From NCBI GenBank assembly GCA_947503785.1, contig CANNFB010000001.1, positions 186,001 through 250,000 of the forward strand: 64,000 bases of DNA. The letters are read 5' to 3'. Under the pieces are notes generated by a model. It did no database searches, was not told the origin of the DNA, and saw only the letters and a program-made list of their open reading frames with translations. Positions 48,441-55,825 of the stretch are shown piece by piece; position 1 is the first letter of the stretch, and the number at the start of each line of letters is the position of its first letter. Source of the DNA: an uncultured Campylobacterales bacterium. GTDB taxonomy: Bacteria > Campylobacterota > Campylobacteria > Campylobacterales > Arcobacteraceae. The translations under genes were made by a program, and so were the position numbers.

Positions 48441-48551
48441 ATTCATTTTATTTACCTTTGTAACCATCTTGTAATTAAAACTATCTATACTTTCAGTACA
48501 GACATTAATTTAAATAAAAGAGATTACGCGAACAATTTCTTTTATCTTACC

Positions 48552-48579
48552 TTCAAATACAACTGCAATTGTATTTGAA
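48552..48579. repeat. Perfect 11-bp hairpin at the 3' end of the aconitase-like gene
   Basis: TTCAAATACAA (48552-48562) and TTGTATTTGAA (48569-48579) with loop CTGCAA. It lies 8 bp beyond the stop of the minus-strand gene ending at 48588 and about 110 bp after the TSUP gene. No T tract follows on the minus strand, so it is not a standard terminator for that gene. On the plus strand T-rich sequence follows, so it may stop the cysE-TSUP transcript. Confidence 0.55.
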
Positions 48580-48587
48580 CTTTGTCT

Positions 48588-51041
48588 TTACTCTAAAATA
48601 TCTTTTAATAAATACTCTAATACTCCACCATTTTTATAATACTCTATTTCCATATTAGTATCAATTTTTGATTGCAGTGTAAGTACCCTACTTTGATTGT
48701 TTTTAAAGATTTCTATATTTATTTTATCATTTGCTTTTAATCCCTGTGATTCAATATTTATTATTTCATCACCTTTTAACTTTAAAGACTCAATATCATC
48801 ATCAATAAATTCTAAAGGTAAAATTCCAACTCTTAAAAGATCTTTTTTATATTCTTTTGAAAAAGATTTAGCGATGATAACTTCTACACCTAAAAGCTTC
48901 AATCCTTTTACGGCCCAATCATTTATTTCACCCATTCCAAATCGACTTCCTGCAAAAATCACTAAAGGGACATTATTCTCTTTCATTTTAAGTGAAAAAT
49001 CATATATTGACATAATTTCACTATTTTGAAAATCTTTGGTATATCCACCCTCTTTTGGGCTTACTATTTTATTTTGAAGTTTATTATTTGACAAAATTGA
49101 TCTTATTATTACATATGAACTTGCATATCTATTTTCAAAAGTATCAAACTCATCAGGTCTTAAACCTTTTGATTGAAGAAATAAAGCTGTTGGAGAGTAT
49201 GAAGGTATTTTACCTTTAGCAGAGATATCTTCACTTGTAATATTGTCATCTAAAAGTGCTAATATTCTTGCATTTTTAATATCAATATTCTCTCTATTTT
49301 TTTGATTAAAAATATCTATTTTACAAAGATAAGTAGAGTCTTCATTCCAAGTGTAATTTTCATTTTTTTCAGATACTAGCTCTTGCCAATAGTTGTTGCC
49401 TATAAAAATATCTTTATATAAATCTTTGTAAACTGAATAATCAAGTTTTTCTAAGTATTCATTTACTTCGATCATACTTGGCCAGATATCACTTAAATAA
49501 ATATCTTGAATAATACTCTCTTTTGTAATATCAAAGTTTAAATTACCTTTTAAACAATAGGCAATTAACAATGCAGGTGAGAATATCCACTTTGATTTTG
49601 TAAATCTATTTTTTTTAATTTCTTCAATATCATTTGAAAAAGAAATATATGATACATTTAAATTAAACTTTTCAATATCTAAAGAAACAGTTTCCTTTAA
49701 AGATATATCTTTCTTCTTTATTAAAACAAACCCTAATTTTTCTAAATACTTATATAAATCAAGTTTTTCTAAAAACTCTTTTTGTACTAATGAGCCAAAG
49801 GTAATAAACTTAGAGATATTTTTATTTATACTAATACCTAAGTCACAAGCTTTTTTTGCAACAAGTGAAGCTTGGATTAATAATGAAGGATTGGTTGTAT
49901 TTGAACAAATATCAATAAGAGCTAAAACAATGTCATTGTCTTTTACAAAATTTCCTTTTTTAAAAGTTTTTAATTTACTACTTACTTCATTTACAAAAAA
50001 CTCTTCATCAAGTGTTTTTAAAGCAAGCCCAAGAGGTACAACTTTTGATAAGTCTAGTTCTAAATATTCTTCATATTGAGCATTCTCATTTAATGAATAT
50101 AGTGTTTGTTTTTCATAATATGTTTTAATAAGTGAAGCATCAACACCTCTTGTTTGTTCAATAAAGAATATAGTATTTGTATCAATTGGAAAGTATCCAC
50201 AAACTCCTTTGTATTGCGAAACAAGTTTTGATAATATTGTTCTATCTTCTAAAGATATATTTTTTAAACCTTCACCATAAAACTCAATAATTTTTCCATT
50301 TATATTATTGTTTTTTAACATATTATTTAATGTTAATGATACATCATTAAAACTTGTACCTTGTCCTAATGAACCTTTAACTTTTATACCAATAGTTTTA
50401 GGTAATTCAAAAGAAATCGAAGAAGCTAACATAACAGATTGTATTTCAAGTCTTCCAACAGTTAAAGAAAGAACACCTAACGAATTAAGCATTGAACTAT
50501 GAAAATCTGTTCCTAATATTGCTTCAGGAAAAACAATAGCTTTATCTTCTTGTATTTTCATTGAAAGCATTGTAGATAAGTATTCCAAATTTACTTGATT
50601 TAAAATATTTGTATTGGGAGGAATTATAGATATATTTTCAAAAGTATTTCCAAGATATTTCAAAAAAGTATATCTTTCTTTATTTTTTTGTTCATTTTTA
50701 TCACTGTTATCAACTACAATATCAAGCATTATTTTTGGGCTTACATTTTTACTTGCTGAAATAAAATCAACTAAAGTTGGAACTCCATTGAATTCATTCA
50801 TAATAATTCTATTTGCATAAAACTTTATTTGTTTTAAATGATTTCTATTAAGAAAGATATTTATAATATCATTGACATCATTAGGATTATTTTCATTTGC
50901 ATTTCTAATATTTGATTCTAATAATATTTTCAGTGTTGCTGGCAATTTTTTTAATTTGGGAAAAGATTCAAATACTTTTTCTAAATCACAATAATAATAT
51001 TTTTTTTCATTATATTCAAAACTATTTAAAAATCTTTTCAA
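48588..51041 (-). CDS. Aconitase A-like protein with a lost active site (pseudoenzyme)
   Basis: 817 residues collinear with AcnA/IRP1 (about 890) from the N-terminal LPATLKILLESNIRN to the swivel domain. Scaffold blocks survive: FNGVPTLVDF, NQVNLEYL (148-155), IEFYGEGL, CGYFPIDT, AGSRFGMGEINDWAVKGLKLLGV, GILPLEF. The active site does not: DHS is D111-N-S; the His before QVNLEYL is Asn148; DSH is D179-F-H; of the three cluster cysteines only Cys379 remains and the CTTCIGNSG loop is absent (about 437-452); DHI is EDI; GSSRDW is GEINDW. No Fe-S cluster or catalysis is expected. RNA binding, as in apo-aconitases, is conjecture. Confidence 0.9.
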   Translation of the reverse strand: MKRFLNSFEYNEKKYYYCDLEKVFESFPKLKKLPATLKILLESNIRNANENNPNDVNDIINIFLNRNHLKQIKFYANRIIMNEFNGVPTLVDFISASKNVSPKIMLDIVVDNSDKNEQKNKERYTFLKYLGNTFENISIIPPNTNILNQVNLEYLSTMLSMKIQEDKAIVFPEAILGTDFHSSMLNSLGVLSLTVGRLEIQSVMLASSISFELPKTIGIKVKGSLGQGTSFNDVSLTLNNMLKNNNINGKIIEFYGEGLKNISLEDRTILSKLVSQYKGVCGYFPIDTNTIFFIEQTRGVDASLIKTYYEKQTLYSLNENAQYEEYLELDLSKVVPLGLALKTLDEEFFVNEVSSKLKTFKKGNFVKDNDIVLALIDICSNTTNPSLLIQASLVAKKACDLGISINKNISKFITFGSLVQKEFLEKLDLYKYLEKLGFVLIKKKDISLKETVSLDIEKFNLNVSYISFSNDIEEIKKNRFTKSKWIFSPALLIAYCLKGNLNFDITKESIIQDIYLSDIWPSMIEVNEYLEKLDYSVYKDLYKDIFIGNNYWQELVSEKNENYTWNEDSTYLCKIDIFNQKNRENIDIKNARILALLDDNITSEDISAKGKIPSYSPTALFLQSKGLRPDEFDTFENRYASSYVIIRSILSNNKLQNKIVSPKEGGYTKDFQNSEIMSIYDFSLKMKENNVPLVIFAGSRFGMGEINDWAVKGLKLLGVEVIIAKSFSKEYKKDLLRVGILPLEFIDDDIESLKLKGDEIINIESQGLKANDKINIEIFKNNQSRVLTLQSKIDTNMEIEYYKNGGVLEYLLKDILE

Positions 51042-51232
51042 AGCTCTTTTCCCTCTACTTTTTCTTAATTAAAAAGTATCTAAATTTACTTTAATAATTA
51101 ATTATAAATAATTTAAATTTTACTATTAAAACTTAAGTTTATAATTTGTGTAAAAGCATAGAAAATTTAATCAATAATTAGCTAAGAGTATAATACAATA
51201 TAAGCTTCAAAAATTTAAAGGCTAATATAATT

Positions 51233-54043
51233 ATGACTGATACTATAAAGATTTTTAACGCTAAAGAAAACAACTTAAAAAATATTAATTTAGAAATACC
51301 AAAAAATAAACTAATCGTATTTACAGGACTATCAGGTTCTGGAAAATCTACTCTTGCATTTGATACACTTTATGCAGAGGGTCAAAGAAGATATATAGAA
51401 TCACTATCTGCTTATGCCAGACAATTCTTAGATAAAGTTGGAAAACCAGATGTTGAAAGAATAGAAGGATTAACTCCTGCTATTGCAATTGATCAAAAAA
51501 CAACTTCAAAAAATCCACGTTCAACTGTTGGAACTATTACAGAAGTTTACGATTATTTGAGACTTTTATATGCAAGAATTGGAAAACAACACTGTCACAA
51601 ATGTAGTAAACCAATTTCACAAATGAGTGCCTCTGATGTAATTTCACAAGTTTTAACACTTCCTGAAAATTCAAAAATTGTAATCCTTGCTCCTTTAATA
51701 AATAGAAAAAAAGGTACATTTGCTGATTTACTTGAATCTTTAAGAGGTAAAGGTTATGTTAGAGCAATGATTGATGGTGTTATGGTTAGACTTGATGAAG
51801 AAATAGAACTTGGTAAGTCAAAAATGCATACAATCAAAGTTGTAATTGACAGAGTTGTAGTAAAAGAAGAAAATAAAGAAAGAATTGCACAAGATGTTGA
51901 AAAAGGCTTAAAAGAAAGTTTTGGTGAATTAGAAATTGAAGTACTAAATCATGAAGATGTTGGAGTTGAAAAACATATTCATTATTCTGAGCATATGGCA
52001 TGTTTTGATTGTAAAATATCTTTTGAACCTTTAGAACCTTTATCTTTCTCTTTTAACTCACCAAAAGGTGCTTGTAGCTCTTGTGATGGCTTAGGTATTA
52101 GATACGCACTTGATATGAAAAAAGTAATAAACGAAGAACTTCCAATAGAAGAAGGAGCTGTTAGAGTAATCTATGGTTTCAACAAAGGTTTTTATTTTAA
52201 AATGCTTACTGCTTTTTGTGAAGCTTCGGATATTGATATGACAATTCCATTTAAAGAACTTGAAGAGTATCAAAGAAAAGCTATTTTGCATGGTGGAATA
52301 GAAGAAGCAAAGTTTGTCTGGAAGAAACATACACTTAAAAGAAAATGGGAAGGTGTTGTCAAAATTGCTTATGATATGGTAAAAGATGAAAAAGAGATGG
52401 CTGAATACATGACAGAAAAAGCCTGTGATGATTGTAATGGAAATAGATTAAAACCCTCATCTCAAAATGTGTATGTAGCAGGTAAGACAATATCTGATAT
52501 TTTAAATGTTCCAATTGAAGATTCTCATAAATTCTTCCAAGATGAAGAGAACTTCAAAGAATTGTCAGATCAATTTAAATTAATTGCAAAACCTATTTTA
52601 AAAGAAATTCAAGAAAGAGTTTTCTTTTTATATGATGTGGGTCTGGGATACATAACATTAGGTCGTGATGCTAGAACAATTTCAGGAGGAGAAGCTCAAA
52701 GAATTAGAGTTGCATCTCAAATTGGTTCAGGGCTTACTGGAGTTATGTACGTTTTAGATGAACCGTCTATTGGACTTCATGAACGAGATACAAATAAGCT
52801 TATTAAAACTCTTAGAGCCTTACAGGAAAAAGGTAATACAGTAATTGTAGTTGAGCATGATAAAGAAACTATTGAAGCGGCTGATTATATTGTTGATATT
52901 GGACCTTTCGCAGGAAAGTTTGGTGGAGAAATTGTATTTGATGGAACATTAAAACAAATGTATAAAGCAAAAACTTTAACTGCAAAATACTTAACTGGTG
53001 AAAAGCAGATTTCTTATGTTCATAATAGACCCCAAGAAGAATTTATAAAAATAAAAAATGTAACAATCAATAACATAAAAGATTTAAGTCTTCAAATACC
53101 TCTTAAAAATTTATGTGCAATTACTGGAGTTTCAGGAAGTGGAAAATCATCACTTATTTTACAGACTTTATTACCTGTGGCAAAAGAGTTATTAAACCAT
53201 GCTAGAAAAGTAAAAAAAGTTGATGGTGTTGAAATAGAAGGATTAGAAAAACTTGATAAAGTAATTTATTTAGATCAATCTCCAATAGGAAGAACTCCCC
53301 GATCAAACCCTGCAACATATACAGGATTAATGGATGAATTAAGACTTCTATTTTCTAAAACAAAAGAAGCAGAAATTAGAGGTTATAAAATAGGACGTTT
53401 CTCTTTTAATGTTAAAGGTGGTAGGTGTGAAAAATGTCAAGGTGAAGGTGAAATTAAAATAGAAATGCATTTCTTACCAGATATTATGGTTAAATGTGAT
53501 GATTGTCAAGGTCAACGATATAATGCTCAAACTTTAGAGATATTATATAAAGGTAAAAGTATTTCAGATGTTTTAAATATGAGTGTTGATGAAGCAGTTG
53601 AGTTCTTTGTTAAGATTCCAAAAATTCATGCAAAACTTCAAACACTAAGTGATGTTGGATTAGGGTATATTACTTTAGGACAAAACGCTGTTACTCTTTC
53701 AGGTGGAGAAGCACAAAGAATTAAACTAAGTAAAGAGTTAAGTAAAAAAGATACAGGAAATACTTTATATATTTTAGATGAGCCAACAACAGGACTTCAC
53801 TTTGCCGATGTTGATAGACTTACAAAAGTATTACATCATTTAGTTGACCTAGGAAACTCTGTTATTGTAATTGAACATAATTTAGATGTTGTAAAAAACT
53901 CTGATTGGGTTATTGATATGGGACCTGAAGGTGGAAATAAAGGAGGATTACTTGTAGATGAGGGAACTCCTGAGCAAATTGCAAAAAATCATAAAAAATC
54001 TGGCTCTCACACGGGTTATTATCTAGCAAAAGAAATAAAATAA
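51233..54043 (+). CDS. uvrA: UvrA, damage-recognition subunit of UvrABC excinuclease
   Basis: 936 residues with two ABC-type ATPase modules. First Walker A GLSGSGKSTLAFDTLY at 33-48, first zinc module CHKCSKPIS and CFDCKISFEP, second zinc-finger region CEKCQGEGEIKIEM and CDDCQGQRYN, signature motifs TISGGEAQRIRVASQIG and TLSGGEAQRIKLSKEL, second Walker A GVSGSGKSSLILQTL, and both DEPSIGLH / DEPTTGLH. Complete. A TATAAT at 51189-51194 lies 39 bp upstream; the 51042-51232 gap is the divergent promoter region shared with the aconitase-like gene. Confidence 0.98.
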   Translation: MTDTIKIFNAKENNLKNINLEIPKNKLIVFTGLSGSGKSTLAFDTLYAEGQRRYIESLSAYARQFLDKVGKPDVERIEGLTPAIAIDQKTTSKNPRSTVGTITEVYDYLRLLYARIGKQHCHKCSKPISQMSASDVISQVLTLPENSKIVILAPLINRKKGTFADLLESLRGKGYVRAMIDGVMVRLDEEIELGKSKMHTIKVVIDRVVVKEENKERIAQDVEKGLKESFGELEIEVLNHEDVGVEKHIHYSEHMACFDCKISFEPLEPLSFSFNSPKGACSSCDGLGIRYALDMKKVINEELPIEEGAVRVIYGFNKGFYFKMLTAFCEASDIDMTIPFKELEEYQRKAILHGGIEEAKFVWKKHTLKRKWEGVVKIAYDMVKDEKEMAEYMTEKACDDCNGNRLKPSSQNVYVAGKTISDILNVPIEDSHKFFQDEENFKELSDQFKLIAKPILKEIQERVFFLYDVGLGYITLGRDARTISGGEAQRIRVASQIGSGLTGVMYVLDEPSIGLHERDTNKLIKTLRALQEKGNTVIVVEHDKETIEAADYIVDIGPFAGKFGGEIVFDGTLKQMYKAKTLTAKYLTGEKQISYVHNRPQEEFIKIKNVTINNIKDLSLQIPLKNLCAITGVSGSGKSSLILQTLLPVAKELLNHARKVKKVDGVEIEGLEKLDKVIYLDQSPIGRTPRSNPATYTGLMDELRLLFSKTKEAEIRGYKIGRFSFNVKGGRCEKCQGEGEIKIEMHFLPDIMVKCDDCQGQRYNAQTLEILYKGKSISDVLNMSVDEAVEFFVKIPKIHAKLQTLSDVGLGYITLGQNAVTLSGGEAQRIKLSKELSKKDTGNTLYILDEPTTGLHFADVDRLTKVLHHLVDLGNSVIVIEHNLDVVKNSDWVIDMGPEGGNKGGLLVDEGTPEQIAKNHKKSGSHTGYYLAKEIK

Positions 54044-54439: not shown

Positions 54440-55825
54440 ATGAATAAAATAAAGATTTTATTATTATTTTTTATATTATCAAATTTTGTAATAATAGATG
54501 AAATATCAAGTAATGACATAGTAGATTACGTAAAACTTACACCAAAAGAAGAAGCTTTTTTAAGAAATACAAAAGTAAAAGTTATCACCTCAAATTCATG
54601 GGCTCCAATTAATATGTATAATGATAAAGATCAATTAGCAGGGATTGCAATTGATTTTTGGAATAAACTAAAAAAAAATGCAAATATTGATTCAGAAATT
54701 ATCACAGCAAAAAACTGGAATCATGTTTTAGATTCTATAAAAAATAAAGAAGCTGACATAACAATTGGAACATCTTATGATAGAAATAAATTAGATTATG
54801 CAAACTTTACAAGTTCATACATAGCATTCCCAATTGCCTTTGCAACTTTATTTGATAAAAGATTTATCCCTAATGCTTCATTTTTAGAAGGGAAGAAAGT
54901 TGCAGTAGGAGAAAATTATAGTTCACATAATATTTTAAAAGAGAACTTTCCCAATATAGATTTTGTTTTAGTTAAAAATACCAAAGAAGCACTAGAATTA
55001 TTAAGTGCAGGAAAAGTAGAAGCAGCAGTTGATATTTTACCGACTATTGCTCATTTAATTTCTGTAAATGGTTATTATAATCTTAAAATATCAGGAACTA
55101 GTGAGCATAAAGTTCATGTTTCTTTTATGATTAGAAAAGATTATAAAGAATTACAATCAATTATGAATAAGCATATTGCAATGTTAAGCCCTGAAGACAA
55201 AAATAATATTATTAGACAATGGCTTACTGTTAAATTTGATAAAACATTTGTAGGATACGAATATTTAGTTCAAATATTAGTTTTAGTTTTACTTGCAATT
55301 TTATTTTATTCATTCAAACAAAAAGATTTAAGAAAATATAATAAAAGATTAAAAAAACTTTCAATTACTGATTCTTTAACTAATCTTCATAATAGAAGAA
55401 GATTAGATGAATTATTAAATGAATCAAAAAATCAAAAATACGCACTAATCCTTTTAGATATAGATCACTTTAAAGAAGTAAACGATATTCATGGACATTT
55501 AGAAGGAGATAAAGTTTTAGTTGAACTTTCAAAACTACTAAAAAATAGTCTAAATAAAAATGATGAAATTGGAAGATGGGGTGGAGAAGAGTTCTTAATC
55601 ATTTGTAAAAATACTACAGAAAAAGAAGCTGCAACAATTGCTTTAAGACTTAAAAGTTTAATTGAAGAATATGATTTTAAAATAAGAGAAATTACAGCCT
55701 CATTTGGAGTTTCTGAAGCAAAAAAAGAATTGACTTTAAAAGATATTCTAGCAAATGCAGATAATGCTTTATATAAAGCTAAACAGCAAGGAAGAAATCA
55801 AGTAGTTTTATCTTCTAGTTTATAA
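54440..55825 (+). CDS. Diguanylate cyclase with periplasmic solute-binding domain
   Basis: 461 residues: signal sequence, type-3 solute-binding domain (about 43-265, VKVITSNSWAPINMYN onward), membrane helix (274-291), GGDEF domain (303-461). The catalytic motif GGEEF (381-385) and the metal Asp block ILLDIDHFKEVND are intact, so c-di-GMP synthesis is expected. The inhibitory I-site RxxD is NKND (372-375), so product feedback is probably absent. Its sensor domain type is the same as that of the kinase at 22862, but no partner is adjacent. Start has AAAGG upstream. Confidence 0.93.
   Translation: MNKIKILLLFFILSNFVIIDEISSNDIVDYVKLTPKEEAFLRNTKVKVITSNSWAPINMYNDKDQLAGIAIDFWNKLKKNANIDSEIITAKNWNHVLDSIKNKEADITIGTSYDRNKLDYANFTSSYIAFPIAFATLFDKRFIPNASFLEGKKVAVGENYSSHNILKENFPNIDFVLVKNTKEALELLSAGKVEAAVDILPTIAHLISVNGYYNLKISGTSEHKVHVSFMIRKDYKELQSIMNKHIAMLSPEDKNNIIRQWLTVKFDKTFVGYEYLVQILVLVLLAILFYSFKQKDLRKYNKRLKKLSITDSLTNLHNRRRLDELLNESKNQKYALILLDIDHFKEVNDIHGHLEGDKVLVELSKLLKNSLNKNDEIGRWGGEEFLIICKNTTEKEAATIALRLKSLIEEYDFKIREITASFGVSEAKKELTLKDILANADNALYKAKQQGRNQVVLSSSL

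Follow-up and report, generated by a model that had tools for sequence, protein, structure and literature searches.

Aconitases are textbook moonlighting proteins. Among the closest described systems, vertebrate IRP2 is an aconitase paralogue with active-site substitutions and no aconitase activity (PMC4693282). In bacteria, apo-AcnB of E. coli binds a stem-loop located immediately 3' of its own ORF (PMC4150767), and apo-AcnA of M. tuberculosis binds an IRE-like element (PMC7527780). The residues of IRP1 that contact the IRE have been described (PMC4184891; PMC4693282). The A. butzleri genome paper reports AcnB and AcnD only, and no paper on a bacterial pseudo-aconitase was found in the open-access literature, to which the search was confined.

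Here, we describe such a protein, referred to below as pseudo-aconitase, from an uncultured member of Arcobacteraceae. In the window, that is, the whole analyzed DNA stretch of 64,000 nucleotides, its gene is located between a convergent permease gene and a divergent uvrA gene:

48588..51041, minus strand: pseudo-aconitase gene, 817 aa, TTG start, no internal stop codon
47709..48440, plus strand: TauE-like permease gene, flanking the pseudo-aconitase gene, convergent
51233..54043, plus strand: uvrA, flanking the pseudo-aconitase gene, divergent

The region upstream of the gene (51042-51232) is conserved among the Poseidonibacter-clade copies (AATTATTAAAG..AAATTTAGATAC..TTTTTAATTAA) and is possibly a promoter or operator. 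Further on in the window, the sequence at 54440-55825 reads as a protein whose N-terminal part is similar to periplasmic solute-binding domains and whose C-terminal part contains a GGDEF-like stretch (GRWGGEEF).

Pseudo-aconitase belongs to the AcnA/IRP1 family, as it contains the Pfam domains Aconitase (1.8e-60) and Aconitase_C (3.8e-19) and is collinear with bacterial AcnA and human IRP1 over the same four-domain fold. In a PDB sequence search, human IRP1 aligns with it almost end to end (E 6.7e-110), and IRP2, the second-best match, also aligns over almost the full length. AcnA is its top-ranking NCBIfam family, yet the scores are under the curated cut-offs (619 vs 686 bits for PRK09277 and 602 vs 945 bits for TIGR01341). 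The protein does not qualify as AcnD either, with 330 vs 1420 bits for TIGR02333 and with tauE and uvrA as neighbors instead of a prpC neighborhood. An Rfam search in and around the gene gave no match.

Unlike AcnA and IRP1, pseudo-aconitase lacks most cluster ligands and catalytic residues. Its motif positions were checked by alignment to E. coli AcnA; for the active-site residues we use the numbering of mitochondrial aconitase (mAcn), assigned on the basis of the aconitase literature and motif alignment. Five of the 21 active-site positions are kept (D100, D165, H167, C358, and N446), and the absent ones include Ser642, Arg644, His101, His147, Arg447, and Arg452 of the active enzyme. Among the ligands of the [4Fe-4S] cluster, C358 is present, C421 is replaced by D, and C424 is deleted. 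The diagnostic positions, all assigned by the AcnA alignment, are as follows:

50703..50711, minus strand: DNS (residues 111-113), canonical DHS
50598..50600, minus strand: Asn148, before QVNLEYL, where the active-site His147 (mAcn numbering) is expected
50499..50507, minus strand: DFH (residues 179-181), canonical DSH
49905..49907, minus strand: Cys379 (mAcn C358), the sole cluster-ligand position left of three
49704..49709, minus strand: deletion site of the CTTCIGNSG loop, a gap between D445 and I446
49224..49232, minus strand: EDI (residues 604-606), canonical DHI
48915..48932, minus strand: GEINDW (residues 704-709), canonical GSSRDW with catalytic Ser642 and Arg644

The earlier note had read from the DNA a long uninterrupted ORF collinear with AcnA and IRP1 and had listed these same motif changes, with Cys379 as the only remaining ligand. 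The reading frame and each of the motifs proved correct against E. coli AcnA and the near-full-length IRP1 alignment. Its wording that all recognizable catalytic and cluster residues had been lost holds for most of them and is slightly too strong, given the five that remain. Assembly error or chance as the source of the losses was rejected, because orthologues from sister species have the same pattern and purifying selection acts on the gene.

The 2.76-Mb genome contains four matches to the Pfam Aconitase domain: pseudo-aconitase, AcnB, AcnD, and a 430-aa LeuC-like protein. AcnD, an Fe/S-dependent 2-methylisocitrate dehydratase, is a paralogue with ~31% identity to pseudo-aconitase but has a near-full active site; its gene adjoins a citrate-synthase-family gene, likely prpC. 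Both AcnB and AcnD exceed their curated cut-offs. Therefore, the cell does not depend on pseudo-aconitase for aconitase chemistry, and its role as a functional aconitase standing in for a missing AcnB was rejected. AcnB and AcnD are also encoded in almost all genomes that carry pseudo-aconitase.

Members of the family were found in 33 of 104 Arcobacteraceae genomes from 8 of 20 genera, the gene being missing in about two thirds of the genomes. All but one of the members are intact and near full length (32/33; 783-862 aa). The only broken copy seen (L067 5106-6746, genome G007) lacks residues 552-777 owing to an internal deletion and is disrupted elsewhere as well; this genome also has no AcnD match. 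Among 397 sampled Campylobacterota genomes, members occur in Arcobacteraceae only, and matches from other families are full-length AcnD-like proteins. A contig scan with family-specific patterns detected relatives only in records assigned to Poseidonibacter, Arcobacter, Campylobacteraceae, or Campylobacterales and in one MAG labeled 'bacterium'; the relative from Poseidonibacter lekithochrous is 86% identical to pseudo-aconitase. By such relatives, the window belongs within or next to Poseidonibacter. In the phylogenetic tree, all members form one clade (support 100/100) separate from AcnA and AcnD, and the family has one origin. Almost all sampled members are adjacent to uvrA, and most are convergent with a tauE-like gene; in a few cases another gene is inserted or the neighbor is a different one. 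At these loci, no conserved gene neighbor other than housekeeping genes was observed. In four gene-less genomes (G004 and three others), tauE and uvrA are adjacent, with a short gap and no gene remnant.

One genome, G089, encodes both a family member and a separate AcnA with 20/21 active-site residues, which groups with AcnA in the tree. Immediately upstream of the gene of this AcnA (L053 5429-8077, G089:C5) are nifH, nifD, and nifK-like genes, and downstream of it are genes similar to those of a molybdate transport operon, as judged by gene names read from their sequences. In this one Arcobacteraceae genome, an aconitase is apparently linked to nif genes.

The retention of active-site residues in the orthologues forms a graded series, from 17/21 down to 3/21. 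At its upper end, L041 (1492-4080, G107:C58) has all three cluster cysteines and a Ser642 to Asn replacement and can be regarded as a natural, near-intact intermediate. The three cysteines are also present in the L014 and L016 orthologues, and the total number of cysteines per orthologue is from 3 to 13. The fewest changes on the tree, which are parsimony counts and not ancestral reconstructions, are two each for Ser642 and Arg452, three for His569, four each for Cys424 and His101, six for Cys421, and eight for Cys358. The few changes of Ser642 compared with those of the cysteines suggest that the catalytic serine disappeared near the base of the family, and the cluster cysteines later, in several separate lineages.

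In a pairwise codon model, the omega (dN/dS) values for ten orthologue pairs are 0.03-0.11, and omega=1 is rejected for every pair (likelihood-ratio statistic 208-544). Because several dS values are saturated, the individual omegas at dS above ~2 are only rough; the pairs with dS 0.5-1.2 agree with the rest. These values, along with intact frames in 32 genomes, are not those of a pseudogene. Since the omegas of neighboring genes are 0.009-0.046 and that of AcnD is 0.037, pseudo-aconitase is constrained yet changes faster than its neighbors; between G000 and G003, its dN is 0.25 vs 0.03 for AcnD, i.e. ~8-fold higher. Among 236 columns near-invariant in active enzymes, mean retention is 0.39 for active-site columns vs 0.59 for the others (Mann-Whitney p 0.012; the Fisher test at a 0.5 cut is not significant, p 0.14). 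In addition, 41 columns are conserved in the family that active enzymes either do not conserve or conserve differently; charged residues are frequent among them, and the inter-domain linker is represented as well. When conservation is compared with that of active enzymes, using approximate domain borders, the ratio is lowest for the cluster domain, domain 3 (0.75), and ~1 for domains 1 and 4 and the linker. One segment stands out:

49029..49073, minus strand: NKIVSPKEGGYTKDF (residues 657-671), more conserved in the pseudo-aconitase family than in active aconitases

An AlphaFold2 model based on 32 family sequences (pLDDT 87.6, pTM 0.86) predicts the full aconitase scaffold, with IRP1 as the nearest solved structures and an AcnA model also close. 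The model fits RNA-bound open IRP1 crystals with rmsd 4.2-4.4 Å over ~785 residues vs 8.1 Å for closed IRP1. The open, IRP1:RNA-like conformation is suggestive only and constitutes weak evidence, because the prediction for AcnD, the closed-form control, reached a pLDDT of only 63. The earlier note had argued for a scaffold-conserving, selected, non-enzymatic protein and had named dN/dS, per-site conservation, and structure prediction as checks. The low omegas and the newly conserved positions, together with 32 intact orthologues of one origin, bear it out.

Thus, related bacteria keep under strong selection a protein without the parts for cluster binding and chemistry, and pseudo-aconitase almost certainly has a job other than aconitase catalysis. 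With high confidence, it is an old, selected, lineage-specific protein. Just as confidently, it can be described as an AcnA-type paralogue, ancestral in Arcobacteraceae, that has lost the catalytic serine with its partner residues and, in most lineages, the cluster ligands, and is selected as a full-length four-domain protein with the enzymology left to AcnB and AcnD.

A hint at its target may come from the 3' side of the gene, where two hairpins are located:

48552..48579, minus strand: HP1, 3'UTR hairpin right after the pseudo-aconitase stop codon, with an invariant 22-nt core in six species and one compensatory pair
48512..48547, minus strand: HP2, terminator-like hairpin common to the convergent tauE, kept in gene-less G004

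The joint folding z value of HP1 and HP2 is -3.86. The HP1 core is identical in six Poseidonibacter-clade genomes, in two of which a flanking U-A pair is changed to C-G in a compensatory manner. Outside this clade HP1 was not found, and most other orthologues have no comparable 3' element. Because HP1 is missing both where the gene is deleted (G004) and where it is broken (G007), it goes together with the pseudo-aconitase gene and is a candidate cis element. On the other hand, the HP2 loop is almost as conserved as HP1. In the same genome, stem-loops also follow the stop codons of acnB and acnD; therefore HP1 may be an ordinary stabilizer or terminator. The exact HP1 sequence is unique in the genome. 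A genome-wide HP1 regulon was rejected: all 26 inexact loci inspected (at most three mismatches) are in open frames, leaving HP1 as the sole intergenic one.

Like HP1, the stem-loop of AcnB autoregulation in E. coli (PMC4150767) directly follows an aconitase-family ORF. The differences are that AcnB belongs to a different aconitase family, that a cluster-based iron switch is impossible in pseudo-aconitase, and that hairpin binding here is putative. The switch of IRP1 between enzyme and RNA binder is likewise impossible. Among the IRE-contacting IRP1 residues R269, S371, K379, S681, P682, N685, R713, and R780, only S681 is identical in pseudo-aconitase and R269K is conservative, the other changes including S371L, K379E, R713Y, and R780N. 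Because most of these contacts are changed, and they vary across the family, IRE-type recognition is unlikely and an IRP1-style mode was rejected; RNA binding in another mode is possible. A net positive charge as a hint of RNA binding was not seen in pseudo-aconitase (net charge -8). The gene-specific conserved hairpin and the open model are compatible with RNA binding, which the earlier note had raised as a possibility, but as indirect evidence.

The following scenario may be proposed. An ancestral AcnA-type paralogue of Arcobacteraceae has lost the catalytic serine and its partner residues, by parsimony early, and in most lineages the Fe-S cluster ligands, by parsimony later and separately. 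Purifying selection has kept the four-domain protein, AcnB and AcnD supplying the enzymology. It would serve as a permanently apo-like, cluster-independent binder of macromolecules. Its most likely target would be RNA, making it a post-transcriptional regulator like apo-aconitase that lacks the iron switch; for Poseidonibacter-clade members, a possible target is the stem-loop directly after their own stop codon. Taken as a whole, this is our best explanation, held tentatively and as something short of probable. The regulatory part proper, RNA binding with autoregulation via HP1, is possible, and we would not call it probable.

The dead aconitase could instead be a protein scaffold with no RNA role that tunes the activity or assembly of the proteins it binds, whether AcnD, AcnB, citrate synthase, methylcitrate synthase, or some unrelated protein. 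The newly conserved charged residues and linker are as expected of an interface, the changed IRP1-type contacts agree with it, and 31/32 genomes with an intact member encode AcnD vs 49/72 of the others (Fisher p 0.0008). However, this co-occurrence does no more than hint at a connection with AcnD or its pathway, because the test ignores phylogeny and incompleteness of MAGs, and the conserved gene neighbors are all housekeeping. We consider a scaffold a serious possibility, also below the level of the probable. It is improbable that the cleft was repurposed for cluster-free binding or conversion of another small molecule: some of its residues do persist among the 32 orthologues (D100 in 28, D165 in 26, and the equivalent of IRP1 W782 in 30), but the catalytic positions vary between lineages and form no new invariant set, and active-site columns are the less retained ones.

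An old AcnA in slow decay, with no present function, would account for the fastest rate among the neighboring genes, for the broken copy in G007, and for the clean absence from G004 and the three other tested genomes. This reading is already largely refuted by omegas far below 1, by 32 full-length frames despite large or saturated synonymous divergence, and by the 41 newly conserved positions, and we regard it as quite improbable. Least credible of all, and very improbable, is the reading that the protein still carries a cluster or is still an enzyme, other ligands having replaced the lost cysteines; L014, L016, and L041 with their complete cysteine sets speak for it, but cysteine numbers are scattered among the orthologues and the loop with two ligands is deleted in pseudo-aconitase.

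Like pseudo-aconitase, IRP2 is an aconitase paralogue with active-site substitutions. The 73-aa insertion of IRP2 has no counterpart in pseudo-aconitase, which is shorter than IRP1, has mostly changed RNA-contact residues, and is of separate bacterial origin. A bacterial IRP2 counterpart in the full sense, a regulator that evolved from an aconitase, is dedicated to RNA binding without a cluster, and is autoregulated via its own 3' hairpin, with moonlighting split into a separate gene, is on present evidence rather unlikely.

A family in which enzyme and cluster were given up while the scaffold stayed under selection offers a direct test of the RNA-binding role apart from catalysis; its orthologues grade from L041 to the stripped forms. 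For marine Arcobacteraceae, automatic 'aconitate hydratase' labels on these proteins would misassign Krebs-cycle capacity.
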